Program-made: the position numbers and the translations under genes
Assembly: GCF_014645235.1 (NCBI RefSeq)
Contig: NZ_BMLM01000001.1
Span: forward strand, 1,612,001 to 1,676,000
Source of the DNA: Agrococcus terreus
Lineage (GTDB): Bacteria; Actinomycetota; Actinomycetes; Actinomycetales; Microbacteriaceae
DNA: 64,000 nt
Direction: 5' to 3'
Shown here: positions 52,185-64,000 of the stretch, one piece after another
Position numbering within the stretch: position 1 is the stretch's first letter
Layout: each line of letters begins with the position of its first letter
The notes under the pieces: model-generated
Database searches by the model: none
Seen by the model: only the letters and a program-made list of their open reading frames with translations
What the model was told of the DNA's origin: nothing

Positions 52185-52254
52185 GAGGGCGCGCCGCATG
52201 ACGCACCGTGACGGGCGCGCGACCCGGCCGTCCTGCGGGGCATCCGCCGCCTGG

Positions 52255-52260
52255 CAGGAT
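52255..52260 (+). promoter_or_regulatory. -10-like hexamer of the PLP-enzyme gene
   Basis: CAGGAT, 6 bases before the ATG at 52267; same arrangement as upstream of the SGNH gene. Confidence 0.4.
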
Positions 52261-52266
52261 CGCACC

Positions 52267-53361
52267 ATGGCCGACGCGCAGCACAGCATCCCCGGATCCG
52301 CACCCCACGCCTCCGGCTCGCTGCGGCCCGAGACGCTCGCCGTGGCCGCCGGCCGGCCCGCCCGCGTGCAGGACGCGCCCGCGAACCAGCCCGTGACCTT
52401 CGCGTCGTCGTTCGTCGCCGGCGGCCCCACCGAGTACGCGCGCTACGGCAACCCGAGCTGGACCGCGCTCGAGGAGGCGCTCGGCGCCCTCGAGGGCGGC
52501 GAGAGCGTGGCGTTCGCGAGCGGCATGGCCGCGGTGAGCGCCGTGCTGTCGCTCGTGCCGCACGGCGGCGCGGTCGTCGTGCCGCGGCACGCCTACCAGG
52601 GCACGCTGTCGCTCCTCGACGCCGAGGCGGAGCGCGGGAGGTTCGCCGTGCGCCGCGTCGACGTCGAGGACGCGGGAGCCGTGGAGGCGGCGCTCGACGG
52701 CGCCGCCCTCCTGTGGCTCGAGTCGCCCACGAACCCCGCGCTCGAGATCGCCGATGTGCCGCGCCTCGCCGCGGCCGCGCGTGCGACGGGCGTGCTCGTC
52801 GCGGTCGACAGCACCTTCGCGACCCCGCTGCGCCTCCAGCCGCTCGCACTCGGCGCGGACTTCGCCGTCCACTCGGCGACGAAGCTCATCGCCGGCCACT
52901 CCGACGTGGTGCTCGGCGCGGTCGGCGCCTCCGATCCCGCGCTCGCCGAGCGCATCCGCACCCACCGCGGCATGCACGGCGCGATCCCGGGCCCGATGGA
53001 GGCGTTCCTCGCCCTCCGCGGCTTGCGCACCCTCGCTGTGCGCCTCGAGCGCGCCGAAGCGAACGCGCGCGAGCTCGCGCGCCGCCTCGCGGAGCACCCG
53101 GCGGTGCTGGAGGTGCGCGACCCCGGCTTCGGCACGGTGCTCGGCATCGTGCTCGCCGACGCCGCCGCGGCCGACGCGGCGGTCGAGCGCGTGCGGCTCT
53201 GGCTGCACGCGACGAGCCTCGGCGGGGTCGAGTCGACCCTCGAGCGGCGCCGTCGCTGGGCGACCGAGGCGCCGACGATCCCGGAGGGGCTCATCCGCCT
53301 CTCGGTCGGCATCGAGCACGTCGACGACCTGGCCGACGACCTGCTCGCGGCGCTGGGCTGA
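52267..53361 (+). CDS. Cys/Met metabolism PLP-dependent enzyme (trans-sulfuration family)
   Basis: A 364-residue fold-type I enzyme. The PLP lysine is Lys206 in HSATKLIAGHSD, the cofactor Asp is in VAVDSTFATP near 181, and ARYGNPSWTALE near 58 carries the phosphate-binding tyrosine. Cystathionine gamma-synthase or gamma-lyase are the likely activities; the typical length is about 380. No other methionine gene is adjacent. An inverted repeat (ACGGCCG at 53367, CGGCCGT at 53395) after the stop may act as terminator. Confidence 0.88.
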   Translation: MADAQHSIPGSAPHASGSLRPETLAVAAGRPARVQDAPANQPVTFASSFVAGGPTEYARYGNPSWTALEEALGALEGGESVAFASGMAAVSAVLSLVPHGGAVVVPRHAYQGTLSLLDAEAERGRFAVRRVDVEDAGAVEAALDGAALLWLESPTNPALEIADVPRLAAAARATGVLVAVDSTFATPLRLQPLALGADFAVHSATKLIAGHSDVVLGAVGASDPALAERIRTHRGMHGAIPGPMEAFLALRGLRTLAVRLERAEANARELARRLAEHPAVLEVRDPGFGTVLGIVLADAAAADAAVERVRLWLHATSLGGVESTLERRRRWATEAPTIPEGLIRLSVGIEHVDDLADDLLAALG

Positions 53362-53455
53362 CGCGCACGGCCGAGGAGGGCCGGGGGAGGGGAGCGGCCG
53401 TCACCGGCGTGTGGTTGCATCGGATCCTCGCACCTCCACGCCGGACGGAGATCCC

Positions 53456-55840
<2,385 letters not shown>

Positions 55841-55870: not shown

Positions 55871-55990
55871 TCAGCGGCCGATCGCGACGACGCGCGCGCC
55901 GGCGGAGAGCCAGGGGCGCCGGAGCACCGGGGCGACGATCGTGGGCACCGGGGGAGCGGCAGGCTCCCGCAGCGTCGTCGCCGCGCTCAC
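55871..55990 (-). CDS. Possible 39-aa protein coupled to the 84-aa gene
   Basis: A short ORF starting at a GTG that overlaps the stop of the upstream 84-residue gene (GTGA). The product is proline- and valine-rich (REPAAPPVPTIVAPVLRR) with no membrane segment. I recognise no family. The exact overlap is the main support; in GC-rich DNA such an ORF may also arise by chance. Confidence 0.3.
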   Translation of the reverse strand: MSAATTLREPAAPPVPTIVAPVLRRPWLSAGARVVAIGR

Positions 55991-56241
55991 GCGCGGCCGG
56001 CCGTGAAGGCCGCCTGCGCCGCCTCGAGCGTCGCGTGGCGGCCGAGGGACGCGCCCTCGCCGTCGACGGCGACGTACTCGCCGAACGCGTGCTCGATGAA
56101 GCCGTGGAACGTCGTGGTGCCGTCGGCGTGGCGCGAGGCGACCCACAGGTCCTCGCCGGGCGTCGCCCAGACGAGGTCGGCGGCGCCGCTGTGCGCAGTG
56201 CCGAGGATGGCGGTGGAGCTCGCGACCATCAGCTGCGTCAT
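55987..56241 (-). CDS. Hypothetical protein (84 aa) divergent from marR
   Basis: I do not recognise this protein. The middle part alternates hydrophobic and charged residues (DLWVASRHADGTTTFHGF then EHAFGEYVAVDGEGASLG) as in a small beta-barrel or ATP-grasp-like strand pair, and the end is a helix (ATLEAAQAAFTAGRA). It starts at the ATG at 56241 and faces the MarR-type regulator across a 101-base gap with two inverted repeats, so the regulator probably controls it. Confidence 0.55.
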   Translation of the reverse strand: MTQLMVASSTAILGTAHSGAADLVWATPGEDLWVASRHADGTTTFHGFIEHAFGEYVAVDGEGASLGRHATLEAAQAAFTAGRA

Positions 56242-56253
56242 GGTGCATGTCCC

Positions 56254-56285
56254 TTCGACCGGAAACGGTTAGTTCGTCGATCGAA
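56254..56285. promoter_or_regulatory. Pair of TTCG...GAA inverted repeats, candidate MarR operators
   Basis: TTCGACCGGAA (56254-56264) and TTCGTCGATCGAA (56273-56285) are imperfect palindromes with centres 20 bases apart, two helix turns. They lie between the 84-residue gene and marR in the most AT-rich part of the gap. Confidence 0.4.
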
Positions 56286-56342
56286 AGATACAACGCTCTA
56301 CCGACCTGTGGCAAACTTGCTCCAGGAGAGGAGAACGACGCC

Positions 56343-56879
56343 ATGACGACCGAGATGCACGCCCGGACCTCGAGCGGGTACTGGTACCCGGAGCACGGGT
56401 CGCCGTCGAGCGTCGACGTCCTCAACCTGCTGCGCCGGTACCGATCGGCGGAGGCCGCCATGCGGGCGCGGACGCGCTCGTCGATGGCGATGGGCGAGAC
56501 CGACCTGCTGGCCCTGCGGCTGCTGCTGCAGGCGCAGCGCAACGGCGAGCTCATGCGGCAGCGCGACCTCGCGACGGCGCTCGGCCTCGCATCCGCCTCT
56601 GTCACGGCGCTCGTCGACCGCCTCGTCAAGACGGGCCACGTACGCCGCGAGCCGCACCCGGACGACCGGCGCGCCACGATCGTCGTGCCGACCACCGACA
56701 CCGACGACGAGGTGCGTGCGACGCTCGGCGCGATGCATCGGCGGATGATCGACATCGTCGACGCGCTGAGCGACGACGAGCGCCGAGCCGTGGCGATCTT
56801 CCTCGAGCGCATGGCCGAGGCCGTCGACCGCATCGACGAGCACGACGCGCCGGAGACCGGTCCGATCCTGATGGCCTGA
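56343..56879 (+). CDS. MarR-family transcriptional regulator
   Basis: A 178-residue winged-helix regulator. The DNA-binding part reads MRQRDLATALGLASASVTALVDRLVKTGHVRREPHPDDRRATIV (quoted in pieces: LATALGLASASVTALVDRL and GHVRREPHPDDRRATI), with the wing Asp-Asp-Arg-Arg typical of the family. An N-terminal extension of about 30 residues (SGYWYPEHGSPSS) is not standard. GAGGAG lies 10 bases before the ATG at 56343. A longer in-frame start at 56247 would overlap the operator region and is unlikely. Ligand unknown. Confidence 0.9.
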   Translation: MTTEMHARTSSGYWYPEHGSPSSVDVLNLLRRYRSAEAAMRARTRSSMAMGETDLLALRLLLQAQRNGELMRQRDLATALGLASASVTALVDRLVKTGHVRREPHPDDRRATIVVPTTDTDDEVRATLGAMHRRMIDIVDALSDDERRAVAIFLERMAEAVDRIDEHDAPETGPILMA

Positions 56880-56947
56880 GCCGGCGCGCCGCATCGGGCC
56901 GCGGCGTCAGCCGGGCCGCGCGGACCCGCTTCTCGCCGCACGTCGAT

Positions 56948-56975
56948 AGCGCCGATAATGCACATTATGTCGGAT
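56948..56975. other. dif-like XerC/XerD chromosome dimer resolution site
   Basis: A 28-base site with the dif architecture: left arm AGCGCCGATAA (56948-56958), six-base centre TGCACA, right arm TTATGTCGGAT (56965-56975). The inner parts CCGATAAT and ACATTATGTC match what is known of actinobacterial dif, and the inner ATAA/TTATGT is shared with E. coli dif. It lies in a non-coding gap of 152 bases between MarR and a convergent gene, in DNA that is otherwise GC-rich. The polarity of the GGGGGAG heptamer reverses exactly around it. Recombination here by XerC/XerD, activated by FtsK, would resolve chromosome dimers. Confidence 0.85.
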
Positions 56976-57031
56976 CAAGGCTCGCGGCCGACGGGTCTGC
57001 ACTGCCCCGGCGGCGGTGCTGAAGGGGTCGG

Positions 57032-57340
57032 TCAAGAAATCGTCGGGGTCCACCGCGCGGCATGCTTCGGCCAGCTCGACGCATCGACGCGATCCAGGTC
57101 GATGCCGCGGAGTCGGACCAGCAGGACGTCATCCGCTGCGCGGGTCACAGCCCAGACGCTTGGCGACCGGCCGTGCGCGTTGGCCTCAGCCCACGCGAGC
57201 ACCTCGTCGACATCGGCGCCGCGGAGCTCCCACTCATCGTTGGAGAGTCCACCGGTCCGGTCGTCCCAGAAGTAGACGCGGTACGTGGGCTCATCCTCCT
57301 GGTGCGTCTGGTCGCGAGGATCGATCGGGCGGGCGTGCAT
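57032..57340 (-). CDS. Hypothetical protein (102 aa) next to dif
   Basis: I do not recognise this protein, which is the first gene on the right side of dif. Its centre reads TYRVYFWDDRTGGLSNDEWELRGADVDEVLAWAEANA (quoted in pieces: YRVYFWDDRTGG, DEWELRGADVDEVLAWAE), an alpha/beta pattern, followed by SVWAVTRAADDVLLVRLRGIDL. That regular strand-helix alternation and the TAGGCT hexamer 6 bases before its ATG support a real gene. No catalytic motif or membrane segment is seen. Confidence 0.65.
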   Translation of the reverse strand: MHARPIDPRDQTHQEDEPTYRVYFWDDRTGGLSNDEWELRGADVDEVLAWAEANAHGRSPSVWAVTRAADDVLLVRLRGIDLDRVDASSWPKHAARWTPTIS

Positions 57341-57346
57341 GGCTCG

Positions 57347-57352
57347 AGCCTA
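57347..57352 (-). promoter_or_regulatory. -10 hexamer of the 102-aa gene
   Basis: TAGGCT, 6 bases before the ATG at 57340. Confidence 0.5.
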
Positions 57353-57405
57353 GGACCGCCCGCCCGGCGCTCCCCCGGCGGCTGGCCCCACCGCGGCACG
57401 GATCC

Positions 57406-57963
57406 TCACTGCCCCGTGCGGCCGTCGATGCGCTCGCGCAGCAGGTCCGCGTGCCCGCAGTGGCGCGCGTACTCCTCGAGCATGTGCACGACGACGCCCC
57501 GCGCCTCCCACGGCTCTCCCGGGATGAAGCGATGGCCGAGGTCGTCGTACCGCGCGTACACGGCCCGCGCGTGCGCCACCTCGCGCTCCCACGACCGCCA
57601 CGCCTCCCCCACGCACTCCTCCGTCGGCACCGCTCCGTCGAAGTCGAGGTCGGGTTCCTCGGTGCTCGCGTAGAGCGGCGGCAGCTCGCCCTGCCCCTCG
57701 AGCGTGCGCCGGAACCAGTGGTGCTCCATGCGCGCGAGGTGCCGGACGAGCCCGAGGAGGCTCATCGTGCTCGGCGGGACCGACCGATCCGCCAGCTGCG
57801 CCGGCGTCAGCCCATCGCACTTCATCGCGAAGGTCGTCCGGTACCGGTCGAGGTACTGGCGCAGCGTCACCACCTCCCCCACCGGTAGCTCGTCGGTCTC
57901 GCGCGGATCGTCGGCGGGATCGACCCAGAAGGCGCGGCGGGCGGGCGGGGCGTCGTCGACCAT
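57406..57963 (-). CDS. DinB-like DUF664 protein (possible mycothiol-dependent transferase)
   Basis: A 185-residue four-helix-bundle protein. The metal-binding histidines typical of the DinB/YfiT fold are visible: His in LVRHLARMEHHWF near residue 75 and the HMLEEYARHCGHADLLRE segment near 157. In actinobacteria DUF664 proteins include mycothiol S-transferases; MshC elsewhere in the window shows that mycothiol is available. Substrate unknown. It follows the 102-residue gene on the same strand with 65 bases between them. Confidence 0.85.
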   Translation of the reverse strand: MVDDAPPARRAFWVDPADDPRETDELPVGEVVTLRQYLDRYRTTFAMKCDGLTPAQLADRSVPPSTMSLLGLVRHLARMEHHWFRRTLEGQGELPPLYASTEEPDLDFDGAVPTEECVGEAWRSWEREVAHARAVYARYDDLGHRFIPGEPWEARGVVVHMLEEYARHCGHADLLRERIDGRTGQ

Positions 57964-58078
57964 GGCGTCAGTCCATCAGCGCCGCGGCCGACGGGCAACC
58001 GGGCGTCGGCCTTCCGAACCCTCGACCCGGTCGGTGTGCTGCGCCGAACGCCCGGGCGCTGTCCGGCATGCTGTCGGG

Positions 58079-58483
58079 ATGGCACGGGCGAAGCGGCGGC
58101 GCGAGCAGGCGGCGGATGCGGCCGGCACGACCGTCGTCGTCTGCCGCGGTGGCGACTGCGGCAGCCGCGCCAAGCATCCGGACATCGACCACGTCGGGCT
58201 GCTGCGCGAGGCGCGCGAGCGGCTCGAGGGCGTCGCCCGCGTGCTGCCGAGCGCGTGCCTCGACGCCTGCGAGCGCTCGAACGTGGTGGTGGTCGTGCCG
58301 CCCGACGAGGAGCCGGTGTGGATCGGCGAGGTGCTCGATGCCGACACGAACGCCGCGGTCTGCTCCTTCGTGCGCGACGGCGGCCCGAGCGCGGCGGCCG
58401 AGCCGATCGAGGTCGAGCTGCGGATGTTCCGCCCGACGCGGCGCAACCGGCAGGAGCTCGAGCACGAGCTCGGCGGCGACTGA
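58079..58483 (+). CDS. (2Fe-2S) ferredoxin-like protein, thioredoxin fold
   Basis: A 134-residue protein with a four-cysteine pattern: VVVCRGGDCGSR near residue 22 and SACLDACERSN near 60, as in thioredoxin-fold 2Fe-2S ferredoxins. The N-terminus is basic (ARAKRRREQAA). The first pair is spaced CxxxxC and the second CxxxC. No partner reductase is adjacent, so its electron-transfer or scaffold role is open. The ATG at 58079 is preceded by CATGCT at 6 bases. Confidence 0.8.
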   Translation: MARAKRRREQAADAAGTTVVVCRGGDCGSRAKHPDIDHVGLLREARERLEGVARVLPSACLDACERSNVVVVVPPDEEPVWIGEVLDADTNAAVCSFVRDGGPSAAAEPIEVELRMFRPTRRNRQELEHELGGD

Positions 58484-58509
58484 CGCCCGGCCCGCCGGAC
58501 GGAGGTGGC

Positions 58510-59169
58510 TCAGCGGCGTCGCGTCCAGACCTGGTGCACGACACCGGTCGGCGACGCGGTCGTCTCGACGTCGAAGCGATCCTCGAGGCCCTCGAGCCCG
58601 TCCCACAGGCGGACGCCGCGGCCGAGCACGATCGGCACCACCACGACGTGCAGGAGGTCGACGAGGTCGGCCTCCAGGAACGCGCGGACCGTCGTGGGGC
58701 CGCCGCCGAGCCGCACGTCGCGCCCGTCGGCGAGCTCGGCGGCGAGCGCGAGCGCCTCCGCGGGCGCGAGGTCGCGGAACGTGAACGTCGTCCCGCCGAG
58801 CACGAGGTCGGGCCGCGGATGGTGGGTGAGGACGACGACCGGGGTGTGGAAGGGCGGCTCGGGCCCCCACCAGCCCTGCCACTCGTGGTCCTGCCACGGG
58901 CCGGTCTGCGGGCCGAACTTGCCGCGCCCCATGATCTCGGCGCCGATCCCGATCTCCGTGGCGGCCGCGAACGCGTCGTCGACGCCGCGCGCGCCCTCGC
59001 CCACCGCCTCGTCCTCGTGGCCGGCCATCGCCACGAACGTCCGGGTCGGGAAGAACCACGACATCAGGCGCCCGCCCGCGTGCCCGAAGGGCGCCTCGAC
59101 CGTGCGCCCCTCCCCCGTCGCGAAGCCGTCGATCGAGACGGCGAGGTTGTGGACCCGCAGCTGCGCCAT
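58510..59169 (-). CDS. RibD C-terminal/dihydrofolate reductase-family protein (1 of 2)
   Basis: A 219-residue NADPH-binding reductase-like protein. The start VHNLAVSIDGFATG and the segment VVVLTHHPRPDLVLGGTTFTF, then LGGGPTTVRAFLEADLVDLLHVVVVPIVLG (quoted in pieces) are the hallmarks of the group. Its substrate is unknown; many members are not folate or riboflavin enzymes. A second family member lies at 62463-63020. The ATG follows TAGCGT by 6 bases. Confidence 0.87.
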   Translation of the reverse strand: MAQLRVHNLAVSIDGFATGEGRTVEAPFGHAGGRLMSWFFPTRTFVAMAGHEDEAVGEGARGVDDAFAAATEIGIGAEIMGRGKFGPQTGPWQDHEWQGWWGPEPPFHTPVVVLTHHPRPDLVLGGTTFTFRDLAPAEALALAAELADGRDVRLGGGPTTVRAFLEADLVDLLHVVVVPIVLGRGVRLWDGLEGLEDRFDVETTASPTGVVHQVWTRRR

Positions 59170-59175
59170 CCGCTC

Positions 59176-59181
59176 ACGCTA
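59176..59181 (-). promoter_or_regulatory. -10 hexamer of the first RibD-C/DHFR-like gene
   Basis: TAGCGT, 6 bases before the ATG at 59169. Confidence 0.45.
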
Positions 59182-59201
59182 GCGGCGGCGGGCGCGACGG
59201 G

Positions 59202-59783
59202 TCAGCGATCGCTCACGAGCAGGTAGCGCTCGTCGTCGATCGGCCGACCCCAGAGGGCCGGACCGGCGAGGTGCGTCAGCTCGACGTGCGCGCGCCGAGC
59301 CTGCACCAGGGCCTCGCAGTCCGCCGCCGTCAGGCCCGCGCCCGTCGACCAGCGGCCCTCGACCAGCACGAGCCGGCCGCCCGGCCGCAGCAGCGCGAGC
59401 CAGCGGTCGAGCGCGACCGCGGGGTCCGGCGTCGCCCACAGCACGTGGCGCGAGAGCACGACGTCGAACGAGCGCGGCGCCAGGGGCGGCGCCGACGCGT
59501 CGGCCTCGAGCAGCACCGGTCGCGGCTCGACGCCGTGGGCCTTCGCCCTCGCCTGCGCGAGCATCGCAGGCGAGAGGTCGATGCCGGTGACGCGGTGCCC
59601 CTCCCCCGCGAGCAGCACCACGAGGCTCCCCGTGCCGCAGCCGAGGTCCGCCACGTCGCACGGCGCGTCACCGACGACCTGCACGAGGAGGCTGCGCCAT
59701 GCCTCGCGCACGTCGGGGTCGCGGAGGCCGTGGTCGGCCGGCTCGTCGTACCGCTCCGCCTCGGCGTCCCAGACCTCGCGCAT
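59202..59783 (-). CDS. Class I SAM-dependent methyltransferase
   Basis: A 193-residue methyltransferase of the small-molecule type. Motif I is VADLGCGTGSLVVLLAGEG near residue 45, the cofactor acid is in VTGIDLSPAM near 68, and motif post-II is VLSRHVLWATPDP near 110. The substrate is not determinable. It ends 21 bases from the next promoter. The ATG follows TAGGGT by 6 bases. Confidence 0.87.
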   Translation of the reverse strand: MREVWDAEAERYDEPADHGLRDPDVREAWRSLLVQVVGDAPCDVADLGCGTGSLVVLLAGEGHRVTGIDLSPAMLAQARAKAHGVEPRPVLLEADASAPPLAPRSFDVVLSRHVLWATPDPAVALDRWLALLRPGGRLVLVEGRWSTGAGLTAADCEALVQARRAHVELTHLAGPALWGRPIDDERYLLVSDR

Positions 59784-59789
59784 GCCCCG

Positions 59790-59795
59790 ACCCTA
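59790..59795 (-). promoter_or_regulatory. -10 hexamer of the methyltransferase gene
   Basis: TAGGGT, 6 bases before the ATG at 59783. Confidence 0.45.
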
Positions 59796-59949
59796 GGCCC
59801 GCGCGGGGCGTTCGCCGGCTCGATCGCGCCCATCCGCGCCGGCGTCCGCACCGAACCCCTCGCAGCGACGTTCCCGGGTGCCTCGCACCCGCGGGGCGTA
59901 GCGTCCCCGCCGACGCGGCACCGACGCCGCACCACCAGGAGGTCGTCCC

Positions 59950-60417
59950 ATGGCTCGCATCCGCCCCACCCTCGCTGCCGTCGCCGCGGCCCTGCTCCTC
60001 GCCGGGTGCAGCAGCCCCGCGACCCCCGACGCCTCCTCCACCGAGGCGCCGCCGAGCGCCACGACCGGCGCGACGAGCGACGCAGGCAGCGGCAGCGGCA
60101 GCGACGACGCATCGTCGATGGCGCTGATGGCCGTGGTCGGCACCGCCGACGACCCCGAGGCCTACGAGATCTCCATCACCGACGCCGATGGCCAGCCCGT
60201 CACCTCGGTGCCCGCCGGCGACTACGAGCTGACCTTCGTCGACGAGTCGACGATGCACAACTTCCACCTCATGGGACCGGGCGGCGTCGACATCGCGACG
60301 GACGTGGCGGGCAGCGACACCTCGACCGTCGAGGTCACGCTCGAGCCGGGCACCTACGAGTACCTGTGCGACCCGCACCCGAGTTCGATGACCGGCACGC
60401 TCGAGGTCACCGGCTAG
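59950..60417 (+). CDS. Cupredoxin-like lipoprotein
   Basis: A 155-residue secreted lipoprotein: lipobox LLAGC with Cys20 and then a long Ser/Thr/Asp-rich linker to about residue 55. The C-terminal domain resembles plastocyanin-type copper proteins, with all four type-1 copper ligands in order: His in MHNFHLM, Cys and His in YEYLCDPHP and Met in SSMTGTL. It probably carries electrons or binds copper at the cell surface. AGGAGG lies upstream of the ATG. Its TAG stop lies in the GCTAGC target duplicated by the IS481 element. Confidence 0.87.
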   Translation: MARIRPTLAAVAAALLLAGCSSPATPDASSTEAPPSATTGATSDAGSGSGSDDASSMALMAVVGTADDPEAYEISITDADGQPVTSVPAGDYELTFVDESTMHNFHLMGPGGVDIATDVAGSDTSTVEVTLEPGTYEYLCDPHPSSMTGTLEVTG

Positions 60418-60418
60418 C
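60413..60418. repeat. Left 6-bp target-site duplication of the IS481 element
   Basis: GCTAGC directly before the element; the same six bases follow it at 61500-61505. The site includes the stop codon of the cupredoxin gene. Confidence 0.85.
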
Positions 60419-60438
60419 TGTACCCGGTCAGCAGGTTG
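60419..60438 (+). repeat. Left terminal inverted repeat of the IS481 element
   Basis: TGTACCCGGTCAGCAGGTTG; 16 of 20 positions match the other end. Confidence 0.85.
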
Positions 60439-61399
60439 GTTGCGTTCTGCTGGCGGGTGGTGTGCCGTGGGCGGAGTGGGTGCGTCGAGTGTTGTAGTGC
60501 TCGAGCCAGGGCGCAAGGGCTGCCGTGCGGTCGGCGTTGCTGGTGAACGGTCGCCGGTAGGCCCATTCGGTGGCGAGGGTGCGGTTGAAGCGTTCGACCT
60601 TGCCGTTCTGCCAGGGGCAGCGGGGCTTGATGAACAGCTGCTCCGCCCCGAGCGCCGCGACCGCGGTGCGGAACGCGCGCGAGTGGCGGTAGGCGAACGC
60701 GTTGTCGGTGATGACCTGCTCGATGCGGTCGAGGCCGTGGCTGGCGAAGTGGTCGGCTGCGCGGGTCAGGACCCCGGCCGCGGTCGCGCCCTTCTCGTCG
60801 GCGTGGATCTCGGCGTAGGCGAGCCGGGAGTGGTCGTCGACGACGGCGTGGATGTAGTCGTAGCCGAGGCCGTGCTTGCGGTCTCGGTTGTCGCCGGGCC
60901 CGCCGCGGCCGTTCGCGCGCCAGCCGCCGCCGTCCGGGATGCGGCCGAGCTTCTTGACGTCCATGTGGACCAGCTCGCCGGGCCGCTCGCGCTCGTAGCG
61001 GGTCGCCGTCTGCTTCGAGGACCGGATCAGCTGCCCGGTCATCGGATCCAAGGCCGACAGCGGCGGGGCGCCGCGGCGGGCGAGGATGCGCGAGACGGTC
61101 CGCGGCGCGACCGGCACGAGCTCCGCGATCCGGTCGCGGCCCAGCCGCTCGGCCGAGCGCAGCGCGAGCACCCGCTCCTCGACTGCGGCCGGCGAGCGCG
61201 TCGGGGACCGTCGGGGCCGGGACGAACGGTCGACGAGCCCGGCGTCGCCCTCGACGCGCCAGCGGCCGATCCAGCGAGCGACGCAGCGGCGCGAGCAGCC
61301 CATCGCTGCCGCGATGTGGGCCTGCCGCCAGCCGGCCAGGTGCCGGTCGATGATCAACCGCCTCCCGCGCGGGGTCAGACGAGCATTAGCGTGGGACAC
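60428..61399 (-). CDS. IS481-family transposase
   Basis: A 323-residue DDE transposase. Two N-terminal helix-turn-helix regions (CSRRCVARWIGRW near residue 38 and RTVSRILARRG near 100) are followed by the RNase H-like core: first Asp in ELVHMDVKKLG near 146, second Asp in VITDNAFAY near 231 and Glu in WQNGKVERFNRT near 267. The reading frame is intact. I start at the GTG at 61399 because GGAGG lies 5 bases upstream of it and family members begin SHANARLTPRG. Its stop is only 10 bases from the end of the element. Confidence 0.95.
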   Translation of the reverse strand: MSHANARLTPRGRRLIIDRHLAGWRQAHIAAAMGCSRRCVARWIGRWRVEGDAGLVDRSSRPRRSPTRSPAAVEERVLALRSAERLGRDRIAELVPVAPRTVSRILARRGAPPLSALDPMTGQLIRSSKQTATRYERERPGELVHMDVKKLGRIPDGGGWRANGRGGPGDNRDRKHGLGYDYIHAVVDDHSRLAYAEIHADEKGATAAGVLTRAADHFASHGLDRIEQVITDNAFAYRHSRAFRTAVAALGAEQLFIKPRCPWQNGKVERFNRTLATEWAYRRPFTSNADRTAALAPWLEHYNTRRTHSAHGTPPASRTQPTC

Positions 61400-61479
61400 G
61401 AGGACCTCCGTTGGTCGGTGAAGCGTGAACAACTCCACTCAACCCGCGGGGGTCCTCCTCATGCCACCAGCAGTGCCAC

Positions 61480-61499
61480 CAACGTCATGACCGGATACA
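61480..61499 (-). repeat. Right terminal inverted repeat of the IS481 element
   Basis: On the minus strand it reads TGTATCCGGTCATGACGTTG, matching the left end with four differences. Confidence 0.85.
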
Positions 61500-61505
61500 G
61501 CTAGC
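61500..61505. repeat. Right 6-bp target-site duplication of the IS481 element
   Basis: GCTAGC, identical to 60413-60418. Confidence 0.85.
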
Positions 61506-61525
61506 GGCCCGGCTGGACGGCCGGG

Positions 61526-62176
61526 TCAGCCCTGCCCGGGGCCGCCGAGGCCCTCGCCCGGCGCCGGCGTCGGGCACGCGGTGGCCTCGCCGAACGCACC
61601 GGCGTGGGCGTGGATCACGATGCCGTCGTCGCTCGGCGCGAACTCGATCGCCATGCCCTCGAGCGACGCGAGGTCGGGCACGTGGCCGATGAGCCCGCTC
61701 GTCAGCGCCGGGTCGTGCTCCATCGGCATCGTGCCCGTCGCGATCAGCCCGTCGGCGACGTTCGCGGCGAGCCGATCGTGGGTGTCGGCCACCGTCCAGC
61801 CGTCGACCGCCCAGTAGCGGTCGGCGAATGCCATCGGCGCGCACCACCAGTCGGTGGACGCCCAGTCGAGACCGGGCGCGGTGCCCGGATCCTCGTCCCA
61901 GGCGACGGCCTCGTCCGGCATGGGCAGCGAGTCGAGCCACCCGTCGGCGCGCGCCTGCGCCACGGGATCGACCGACAGGCCCTCGGCGGCGGCCTCGAGT
62001 GCAGCCGCCTGCGCGAACACGTCGGGCGGCGTCGGCGCAGCCGTCGGCGCGGCGTCCGCCGCGGTGCTCGCCTCGTCGCTCGGTGCGGGCGCCGCTCCCC
62101 CGCTCGCGGCGCAGCCGGCGAGCACGCCGATCGACCCGAGGGCTGCCATGACGATGAGGGATGCTCGCTGACGCAT
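61526..62176 (-). CDS. Secreted lipoprotein of unknown function (216 aa)
   Basis: A signal peptide with lipobox VLAGC (Cys22) is followed by an alanine/proline-rich linker to about residue 50 and a folded domain I do not recognise. The domain contains WASTDWWCAPMAFADRYW and a second cysteine in EATACPTPAPG near the end, which may form a disulfide. The IS481 element sits 20 bases beyond its stop. It was the convergent neighbour of the cupredoxin lipoprotein before the insertion. Confidence 0.75.
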   Translation of the reverse strand: MRQRASLIVMAALGSIGVLAGCAASGGAAPAPSDEASTAADAAPTAAPTPPDVFAQAAALEAAAEGLSVDPVAQARADGWLDSLPMPDEAVAWDEDPGTAPGLDWASTDWWCAPMAFADRYWAVDGWTVADTHDRLAANVADGLIATGTMPMEHDPALTSGLIGHVPDLASLEGMAIEFAPSDDGIVIHAHAGAFGEATACPTPAPGEGLGGPGQG

Positions 62177-62242
62177 GTCCGGACTGGAGCCGAGCGAGGC
62201 CGCCGAGCACAGCCCCTCGGGCGCTCCTCGGCCGACGGCCGG

Positions 62243-62248
62243 TAGGCT
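62243..62248 (+). promoter_or_regulatory. -10 hexamer of the 63-aa membrane protein gene
   Basis: TAGGCT in the context CCGGTAGGCT, 6 bases before the ATG at 62255. Confidence 0.5.
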
Positions 62249-62254
62249 GGCGGC

Positions 62255-62446
62255 ATGCGCCTGATCACGGAAGCCGCCCACGACGCGATCGTCCCGCTCG
62301 ACGAGCCGATGAACCTCGTGGTGCTCGGCCTCGTGGCGCTCGGCACCCTCGCGACCGTCGCGCTCGTCGCCGCGCTCGCCGCCTCGACGCTCGACCGCCG
62401 CGTCATCGACGCCGCGCCGGGCGGCCGCGGCCACCGCGCCCAGTAG
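62255..62446 (+). CDS. Small single-pass membrane protein (63 aa)
   Basis: Unknown function. A polar N-terminus (MRLITEAAHDAIVPLDEP) precedes one clear hydrophobic helix (residues about 19-44: MNLVVLGLVALGTLATV then ALVAALAAS) and a basic tail ending GRGHRAQ. The strong -10 hexamer at the right distance supports expression. No partner is obvious. Confidence 0.65.
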   Translation: MRLITEAAHDAIVPLDEPMNLVVLGLVALGTLATVALVAALAASTLDRRVIDAAPGGRGHRAQ

Positions 62447-62462
62447 CCGGCGCGCCGAGCGC

Positions 62463-63020
62463 TCAGCGCGCGCGGTAGCGCGCGTAGAGCAGCCCGTTCG
62501 CGAAGGCCCGCTGCTCGACGAGCTCGAGGTCGAGCCGCACGCCGTCGGGGAAGAAGCGCGTGCCTCCGCCGACCACGCTCGTGGTCATGAACAGGTGGTA
62601 CTCGTCGACGAGGCCTGCCCGGATCGCCCGCGCCGCGAGCGTCGGGCCGTCGATCGAGAGGTCGTGCGGCGACGCGTCCTTGAGCCGCCGCACGGCCTCC
62701 GGCTCGAACGACCGCACCACGCGTGTGCACTCGCTCGCCACGCGCTCGAGCCTCGTCGAGAAGACGACCTTCTCGGCGGCGCGCCAGTCGCGCGCGTAGT
62801 CGAGGATGTGCTGCGGCACGTCGGGCTGCTCGTGGACGGTCTCCCAGAAGAGCATCGTCTCGTACATGCGCCGGCCGTACAGGAAGGTGCCGACGTCGCG
62901 GAACGCATCGCCGATGAAGGCGTGCACCTCCTCGTCCTCGGCGCCGCGCCCGAGGTCGCCGTCGGCCGCGACCGCGTAGCCGTCGAGCGACGTGATCATG
63001 CCGTAGTGCAGCCGCGCCAT
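62463..63020 (-). CDS. RibD C-terminal/dihydrofolate reductase-family protein (2 of 2)
   Basis: A 185-residue member of the same family as the gene at 58510. It begins MARLHYGMITSLDGYA, has the FLYGRRMYETM segment near residue 47, IDGPTLAARAIRAGLVDEY near 120 and VVGGGTRFF near 145, all typical of the fold. It probably reduces a small molecule with NADPH, but no pathway is suggested by its neighbours. The convergent gene upstream on the other strand is the 63-residue membrane protein. Confidence 0.87.
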   Translation of the reverse strand: MARLHYGMITSLDGYAVAADGDLGRGAEDEEVHAFIGDAFRDVGTFLYGRRMYETMLFWETVHEQPDVPQHILDYARDWRAAEKVVFSTRLERVASECTRVVRSFEPEAVRRLKDASPHDLSIDGPTLAARAIRAGLVDEYHLFMTTSVVGGGTRFFPDGVRLDLELVEQRAFANGLLYARYRAR

Positions 63021-63134
63021 GCGGCCAGCGTCGCCGACCGCCGTCGGTCGCGCAAGCGCCCGATCCGAGCGGTCCGGGATGATCGGGTGCGCACCGTCAC
63101 CGCCCGCCAGGCTCGGATGCGGAGGAGGACCGAC

Positions 63135-64000
63135 ATGATCGAGCACCTGAACCGCGTCGTCGCGGTCGTCGAGGCGTCGCTCGCGGACGACCCTGACGTG
63201 GCGTCGCTCGCGCGCTCCGTCGGGACGACCGAGCACCACCTGCGCCGCATGTTCTCGTCGCTCGCCGGCCTGCCGCTGTCGGAGTACGTGCGGCGGCGCC
63301 GCATGACCGCGGCAGCCGCCGACGTGCTGCGCGGCGACGAGCCGCTGGACGTGGCGGTGCGGCACGGCTACGGCTCGACCGAGGCCTTCGGCCGTGCGTT
63401 CGCGGCCGTGCACGGCGCCACGCCGCGCGAGGTGCGCGAGCATGGCGGCCCCCTCCGATCGCAGCAGCAGCTCAGGTTCCGCCTGACCGTCGAAGGGAGC
63501 ACGTCCATGGACGTCCGCATCGCAGAACGCCCCGCCTTCCGCCTCATCGGCCTCGCCGCGCGGGTGCCGCTCATCCACGAGGGGGTGAACCCGCACATCC
63601 GGGCCCACGTCGCGTCGATTCCTGCCGAGCAGCACGCTCGGCTGCGCGCGCTGAGCGGTGCAGAGCCCGCGGGCCTCCTGCAGGTCACCGCCGACGTCGA
63701 TCCCGACGCACGGGAGGGCACGGAGCTGACCTACCTCCACGGCGTCGCCGTCGAGGCGGCCGCGACCGTGCCCGACGACCTCGACGCCATCGCCGTGCCG
63801 GCCGGCACCTGGGCGGCGTTCCGCAGCTCGGGCGCGCACCCCGGCGCCCTGCAGGCGACGTGGGCGGCGACGGCAGCGGAGTGGTTCCCGTCGAACCCGT
63901 GGCGGCTCCGCCCCGGACCGTCGATCGTCGCCGTGCTGGATCGCGCGGACGACTGGAGCACCGCCACGACGGAGCTCTGGCTGCCCGTGGAGCGCGCCTG
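63135..64000 (+). CDS. AraC-family regulator with GyrI-like sensor domain (3' end cut by window edge)
   Basis: At least 288 residues, still open at the right edge. The N-terminal AraC domain has two helix-turn-helix units (VASLARSVGTTEHHLRRMF near residue 23 and PLDVAVRHGYGSTEAFGRAF near 77). From about residue 120 a GyrI-like (AraE_N/SOUL-type) domain follows: MDVRIAERPAFRLIGLAARVPL, quoted in part, then TYLHGVAVEA and VPAGTWAAFRSSG. Such fusions (Rob/BmrR type) bind drugs or other hydrophobic ligands. GGAGGACCG lies before the ATG at 63135. The frame ends ELWLPVERA, so only a few residues can be missing. Confidence 0.9.
   Translation, partial: MIEHLNRVVAVVEASLADDPDVASLARSVGTTEHHLRRMFSSLAGLPLSEYVRRRRMTAAAADVLRGDEPLDVAVRHGYGSTEAFGRAFAAVHGATPREVREHGGPLRSQQQLRFRLTVEGSTSMDVRIAERPAFRLIGLAARVPLIHEGVNPHIRAHVASIPAEQHARLRALSGAEPAGLLQVTADVDPDAREGTELTYLHGVAVEAAATVPDDLDAIAVPAGTWAAFRSSGAHPGALQATWAATAAEWFPSNPWRLRPGPSIVAVLDRADDWSTATTELWLPVERA

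Follow-up and report, generated by a model that had tools for sequence, protein, structure and literature searches.

A predicted dif site in Agrococcus terreus and the gene order on its two sides

In bacteria, dif lies near the end point of replication, and it is there that Xer enzymes separate joined sister chromosomes. Does a 28-base, AT-rich sequence with two symmetric arms in the actinobacterium Agrococcus terreus serve this purpose, and does it mark the terminus of the chromosome? The sequence lies in a 64-kb stretch of DNA, here called the window (C1:1612001-1676000). A first-pass annotation, made from the letters of the window, had taken it for the dimer-resolution site and had concluded that the replichores meet at this point. 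In a literature search we found no paper that names both 'Agrococcus' and 'dif site'; what is described here is a well-supported predicted dif for such a genus.

Sequence, context and copy number of the site

The site occupies positions 56948-56975 of the window on the plus strand (C1:1668948-1668975). Its 11-6-11 layout, AGCGCCGATAA TGCACA TTATGTCGGAT, is exactly the 28-base arrangement of 11-base arms around TGCACA that had been reported. The XerC-side arm AGCGCCGATAA (56948-56958, +) and the XerD-side arm TTATGTCGGAT (56965-56975, +) were delimited by the site sequence and by conservation in the genus. Between them is the 6-base centre (56959-56964, +), the strand-exchange region, which was read from the site sequence. 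The gamma-proteobacterial dif consensus, as given in PMC5993296, served to assign the arm labels. By hand count, 13 of the 28 bases (46%) are G or C. The G+C content of the window, taken in 2-kb bins, is 71.8-78.4%, and the earlier description of an AT-rich site in a GC-rich background was thus correct.

As far as can be told, the site is intergenic and non-coding, in agreement with the first-pass annotation. A MarR-family regulator gene on the XerC side, outside dif (56247-56879, +; PF01047, E 1.2e-11), ends 68 bases upstream, and relatives of it were present at 14 of 23 congener dif loci. The next plausible gene after dif is a weakly supported open reading frame of 102 amino acids (57340-57032, -) without a Pfam match. 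Two mechanical open reading frames start within the site, both without a Pfam match. One (56958-57275, +) had no relatives at the dif loci of the 23 congeners. The other (55871-56965, -) runs antisense over the MarR gene, and its tblastn matches in 14 of 23 congeners were the same 14 loci at which the MarR gene was matched.

The site is a single copy. At up to three mismatches the 20-base core matched once in the window (none of 100 shuffles contained a match), and the entire 28-mer matched once in the genome (2,830,661 bases, 8 contigs; the reversed control gave none). A weight matrix assembled from 46 sites, that of A. terreus among them, gave the site a score of 55.0; the lowest score of the matrix sites was 41.8 and that of the next best place in the window -5.4. 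The search for a second genomic match, which had been proposed as a check, returned no other dif-like site at up to three mismatches over 28 bases. With the weight matrix none was found over the window plus 20 kb beyond it, where the best other score was -5.4.

The core was then compared among 99 genomes, i.e. our own and 98 relatives. At up to two mismatches 76 genomes contained matches, and the reversed control gave none. All 24 genus members, A. terreus included, had a single core match per genome (20 exact, 4 with one mismatch). Twenty-three genomes lacked a match at this threshold; ten of them had one at three mismatches, where one control match also appeared, in G095. Even at three mismatches a core match was absent from 13 of the 99 genomes.

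Bases 3-10, 12, 14 and 16-24 of dif are invariant in the 24 genus members, 23 of them have A at base 11, and TTATGTC of the XerD-side arm is identical in all. The centre reads TGCACA in 21, TGCGCA in two and TACACA in one. Base 25 (position 56972, XerD arm) is G in 18 members, A in three and C in three. It is A in each of the 20 same-family sites fetched (from 25 matching genomes) and in each of the 22 order-level loci read by eye (from 27 matching genomes). A single Agromyces record has the G form as well; thus, this form is not confined to Agrococcus.

Two relatives had a pair of sites. In the family member G049 two core matches at up to two mismatches were seen, the second dif-like site being located at C4 7897-7916 of a 74-kb contig; the G+C of the surrounding stretch is 0.637 compared with 0.704 around the other site of this genome. 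Six of seven proteins scanned near this second site matched Pfam families (transport, regulator, lipoprotein and lipid families), and no plasmid family was among the matches of the seven. G084 carries two weak dif-like sites with three mismatches each (C1:179296 and C1:181477), which are separated by 2.2 kb and point in opposite directions.

Xer machinery and the replication terminus

The genome encodes xerC-like and xerD-like genes and an FtsK with a gamma domain. Its tyrosine-recombinase matches are three, L003, L004 and L005. The highest score of the XerD-like L003, 361 bits, was with the general Xer model PRK00283 (cut-off 279); the XerD model came next (329.4 bits, cut-off 329.6). For the XerC-like L004 the XerC model was best with 288 bits, below the NCBI cut-off of 335. 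Because these equivalog scores are below the cut-offs, the pair was named XerC and XerD by best match. The catalytic R, HxxR, H and Y of tyrosine recombinases are readable in both. L005 matched four Xer models, all of them weakly (46.7 bits or less), and resembles a phage-type integrase. The FtsK gamma domain (PF09397) is located at C2:34666-34827 (E 7.5e-22; 78.6 bits, cut-off 30.6). The FtsK open frame comprises 957 amino acids; in the 650 that were read the FtsK match was below the cut-off of the full-length model.

Dimer resolution by XerCD and FtsK is a matter of general knowledge, and in Agrococcus it would presumably proceed as follows. Recombination between sister chromosomes would generate a fused dimer. 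XerC would occupy the left dif arm and XerD the right arm, a protein-to-arm pairing which we assume from known biology. FtsK at the division septum would pump DNA until both dif copies come together, and would activate XerD through its gamma domain, as it is known to do. A single crossover in the 6-base centre should then restore monomers, with strand exchange taking its usual course. With GGGNAGGG no KOPS-like polarity reversing at dif was seen in 35 sampled stretches and the window (20 vs 26 on the left arm, 11 vs 21 on the right). The E. coli passage of PMC11898615 agrees with the mechanism as set out here.

Next, the position of the site was examined. dnaA is at C1:137065-137550. From there to dif the path along C1 is 1.531 Mb; the other arm is 1.299 Mb (54:46), assuming that all other contigs are chromosomal (C1 with 2,019,634 and C2 with 798,943 bases make up 2,818,577 of 2,830,661). 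The distance between dif and dnaA amounts to 0.434-0.497 of the chromosome in 15 of 16 relatives that are single contigs of exactly known length (eight from the same genus, six from the same family and two from the same order). These were taken from 26 relatives in which dnaA was located, leaving out seven multi-contig genomes and three single-contig ones without an exact length (G033, G060 and G098). The exception is the single-contig congener G011, in which dif is 117 kb, or 0.041 of the contig, from dnaA. N bases (1 to 140) were present in 5 of 17 spread stretches read from G011. The order of this contig may therefore be a product of scaffolding, and the short distance is probably a scaffolding error, although withheld sequence likewise reads as N.

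About 27% of the genome, namely 35 20-kb stretches of C1 plus the window, was sampled for skew and gene strand. The mean raw GC skew was -0.011 in the 24 pieces between dnaA and dif; in the 11 pieces beyond dif it was +0.002. Neither mean includes the stretch with dnaA or the window quarter with dif. The third-position skew of 429 called genes beyond dnaA tracked the coding strand only. After allowing for gene strand, no replication-linked GC skew was detected in the sampled sequence (terms of +0.001 and -0.003 on the two sides). In ten sub-regions the replication term varied from -0.048 to +0.023 with inconsistent sign, and leading minus lagging skew was -0.003 (permutation p 0.77).

Gene strand was assessed using gene calls from a simple codon-position filter, as were third-position skew and, below, the 40-kb flank and reference-free comparisons. 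In the sampled sequence, the plus strand carries 68% of the called coding bases between dnaA and dif (230,775 of 338,232); past dif this share is 33% (49,314 of 149,301). The gene-strand running sum stays at about 50-60 kb from 1.60 to 1.80 Mb, and its highest printed value is at 1.751 Mb. The change point of strand-biased octamers learned on the left arm is at 1.742 Mb. It is 73 kb away from dif, a distance equal to 2.6% of the genome, and the octamers look like gene-orientation words.

The reversal of the coding-strand bias places the terminus here to within about 100 kb. A terminus in the dif region is thus supported at this scale, and with it the claim that the window is at the chromosome terminus. 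A meeting of the replichores at this very base is not supported: the octamer change point is displaced, the sampled GC skew carries no replication signal and, according to Kono et al. (2011; PMC3025954), replication ends near dif rather than at dif. The same paper gives a distance of dif to the skew shift point within 3% in Proteobacteria and Firmicutes. In A. terreus dif marks the terminus of a genome where GC skew could not.

Gene order on the two sides of dif

On the XerC side, outside dif, a gene for a Cys/Met-metabolism PLP-dependent enzyme (52198-53361, +; PF01053, E 1.8e-82) has relatives at 20 of 23 congener dif loci. The second gene before dif codes for a UvrA-like ABC protein with ABC_tran and UvrA DNA-binding domains (52754-55840, +); full-length relatives near dif were found in only some congeners. 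On the XerD side, comparison with congeners delineates a variable segment which starts directly at dif (56976-64000) and, past the end of the window, reaches about 22 kb to the right of dif. It contains an IS481-type transposase gene (60428-61438, -; PF13683/PF13011). The other right-hand genes scanned are ordinary, i.e. transporters, a kinase, an ASCH domain, a methyltransferase, a peptidase and others.

The open reading frames right of dif had relatives at 0 to 1 of the 23 congener dif loci. These loci extend about 5 kb in either direction, four of the 23 being less than 10 kb long, and own genes beyond 5 kb on the right are hardly detectable in them. Flanks of 40 kb were next compared in ten of the 23 congeners, each with a long contig around dif. 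On the left, 13 own genes located 38.2 to 6.9 kb from dif have the same order in all ten. On the right, own genes recur in at most five of ten congeners until +21.9 kb and are missing or displaced in most. From +21.9 kb onward follow genes common to eight congeners, where they are at +10 to +34 kb.

A reference-free comparison of 659 called genes from 11 genomes, using reciprocal best hits on the same side, was also made. In the two 5-kb bins on the left of dif, genes found in at least five other genomes made up 0.49 and 0.30 of the total; in the two right-hand bins these shares were 0.02 and 0.00. On the left, the distance from dif to the nearest gene common to six or more other genomes ranges from 1.6 to 13.1 kb in 11 of 11. 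For seven of the 11 the corresponding right-hand distance is 10.1 to 37.6 kb, and for three no such gene was found within 40 kb. G002 runs contrary to the one-sided pattern, with a widely shared gene 0.8 kb right of dif. On the XerC side, gene order mostly persists until a few kb before dif; on the XerD side it is mostly disrupted from the start.

How might such an asymmetry arise? Possibly dif in Agrococcus constitutes a one-sided boundary, with order kept up to the XerC arm and a segment of at least 10 kb from the XerD arm onward being rebuilt repeatedly. This could reflect Xer capture of incoming DNA with fixed polarity, the far junction decaying afterwards, and would perhaps explain the changed outer base of the XerD arm in most of the genus. 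We consider this proposal rather unlikely. Because no second dif-like site was found, DNA capture by Xer is only conjecture. The simpler reading is a plastic region placed by chance between two conserved blocks. We met no description of a one-sided variable zone at dif in the portions of PMC3025954, PMC9765430, PMC5993296 and PMC11898615 at hand; it may be in print. Such a zone of gene turnover beside dif can be tested for in other genera.

Alternative readings and known dif systems

Several observations were counted against a dif at the terminus: the GC skew, which lends no support, the distant octamer change point, G011, the 13 genomes without a match, the L003 and L004 scores below cut-off and the lack of KOPS-like polarity with GGGNAGGG. 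Which other readings would fit? The site might be a dif mimic, that is the attachment site of an integrated mobile element which uses the host Xer proteins, and not the chromosomal dif. The DNA just right of dif, variable among congeners and with its IS481-type transposase gene, would suit such an element. Yet a second dif-like site did not emerge from the genome search at up to three mismatches or from the weight matrix over the window plus 20 kb, exactly one copy of the core at up to two mismatches exists in each of the 24 genus members, and the same left-hand genes border dif in all ten congeners with 40-kb flanks. A mimic is accordingly very improbable.

Hardly any credence is due to the view that the palindrome is an operator for a transcription factor or a terminator belonging to the MarR gene. 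Its dyad symmetry, its AT-rich composition and its intergenic position 68 bases downstream of that gene may well suggest it; however, neither a terminator match nor a promoter match was obtained, dif is kept in nine of 23 congener loci without a MarR relative (two of which, L080 and L092, are shortened loci), and matching sites occur in further families of the order. The site could also be a true former dif, with dimers now being resolved elsewhere, e.g. after a rearrangement. The GC skew, which does not change here, and the broad gene-strand maximum between 1.60 and 1.80 Mb are compatible with this; against it, no other match turned up in the genome at up to three mismatches, and 20 of the 24 genus members carry the core unchanged. 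The chance that dif function has moved away is next to negligible. Thus, 56948-56975 is almost certainly an ordinary dif site. Taken as a whole, the data are best explained by a chromosomal dif of Agrococcus at which dimers are resolved via XerC/XerD and FtsK, and of this we are highly confident. The dimer-resolution site proposed in the first-pass annotation is upheld by the likeness to the dif of Frankia alni described below, by the single copy throughout the genus, by a position nearly antipodal to dnaA and by the encoded XerC, XerD and FtsK gamma domain.

Known systems allow a comparison. Integrative mobile elements exploiting Xer (IMEX) insert at dif, as set out in part of PMC9765430. Common to both is a dif-type site for host Xer proteins. 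The IMEX described there are different in that the element is located between two dif-like sites, one of them modified, whereas in the Agrococcus genome one site was found, with no modified second copy at up to three mismatches or by weight matrix over the window plus 20 kb. On these grounds an IMEX reading of the dif region was rejected.

The gamma-proteobacterial dif consensus, RNTKCGCATAATGTATATTATGTTAAAT in the passage of PMC5993296 used here, shares with the Agrococcus site the length, the layout and the inner arm ends, ATAA and TTATGT. It differs in its centre, TGTATA instead of TGCACA, and the outer arms are unlike. Closest is the predicted dif of Frankia alni, CACGCCGATAATGCACATTATGTCAAGT, the seed of the actinobacterial dif model of Kono et al. 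(2011; PMC3025954). It has the same 11-6-11 layout and 23 of 28 bases in common; bases 3-24 are an identical run of 22 bases, including the whole TGCACA centre. The differences are at bases 1, 2 and 25-27, and the XerD-arm end reads CGGAT in Agrococcus and CAAGT in F. alni. As far as these sources go, the two comparisons are in line with the earlier statement that the inner arm bases match actinobacterial dif and, in part, that of E. coli: the former by the 22-base run shared with F. alni, the latter by ATAA and TTATGT of the gamma-proteobacterial consensus.
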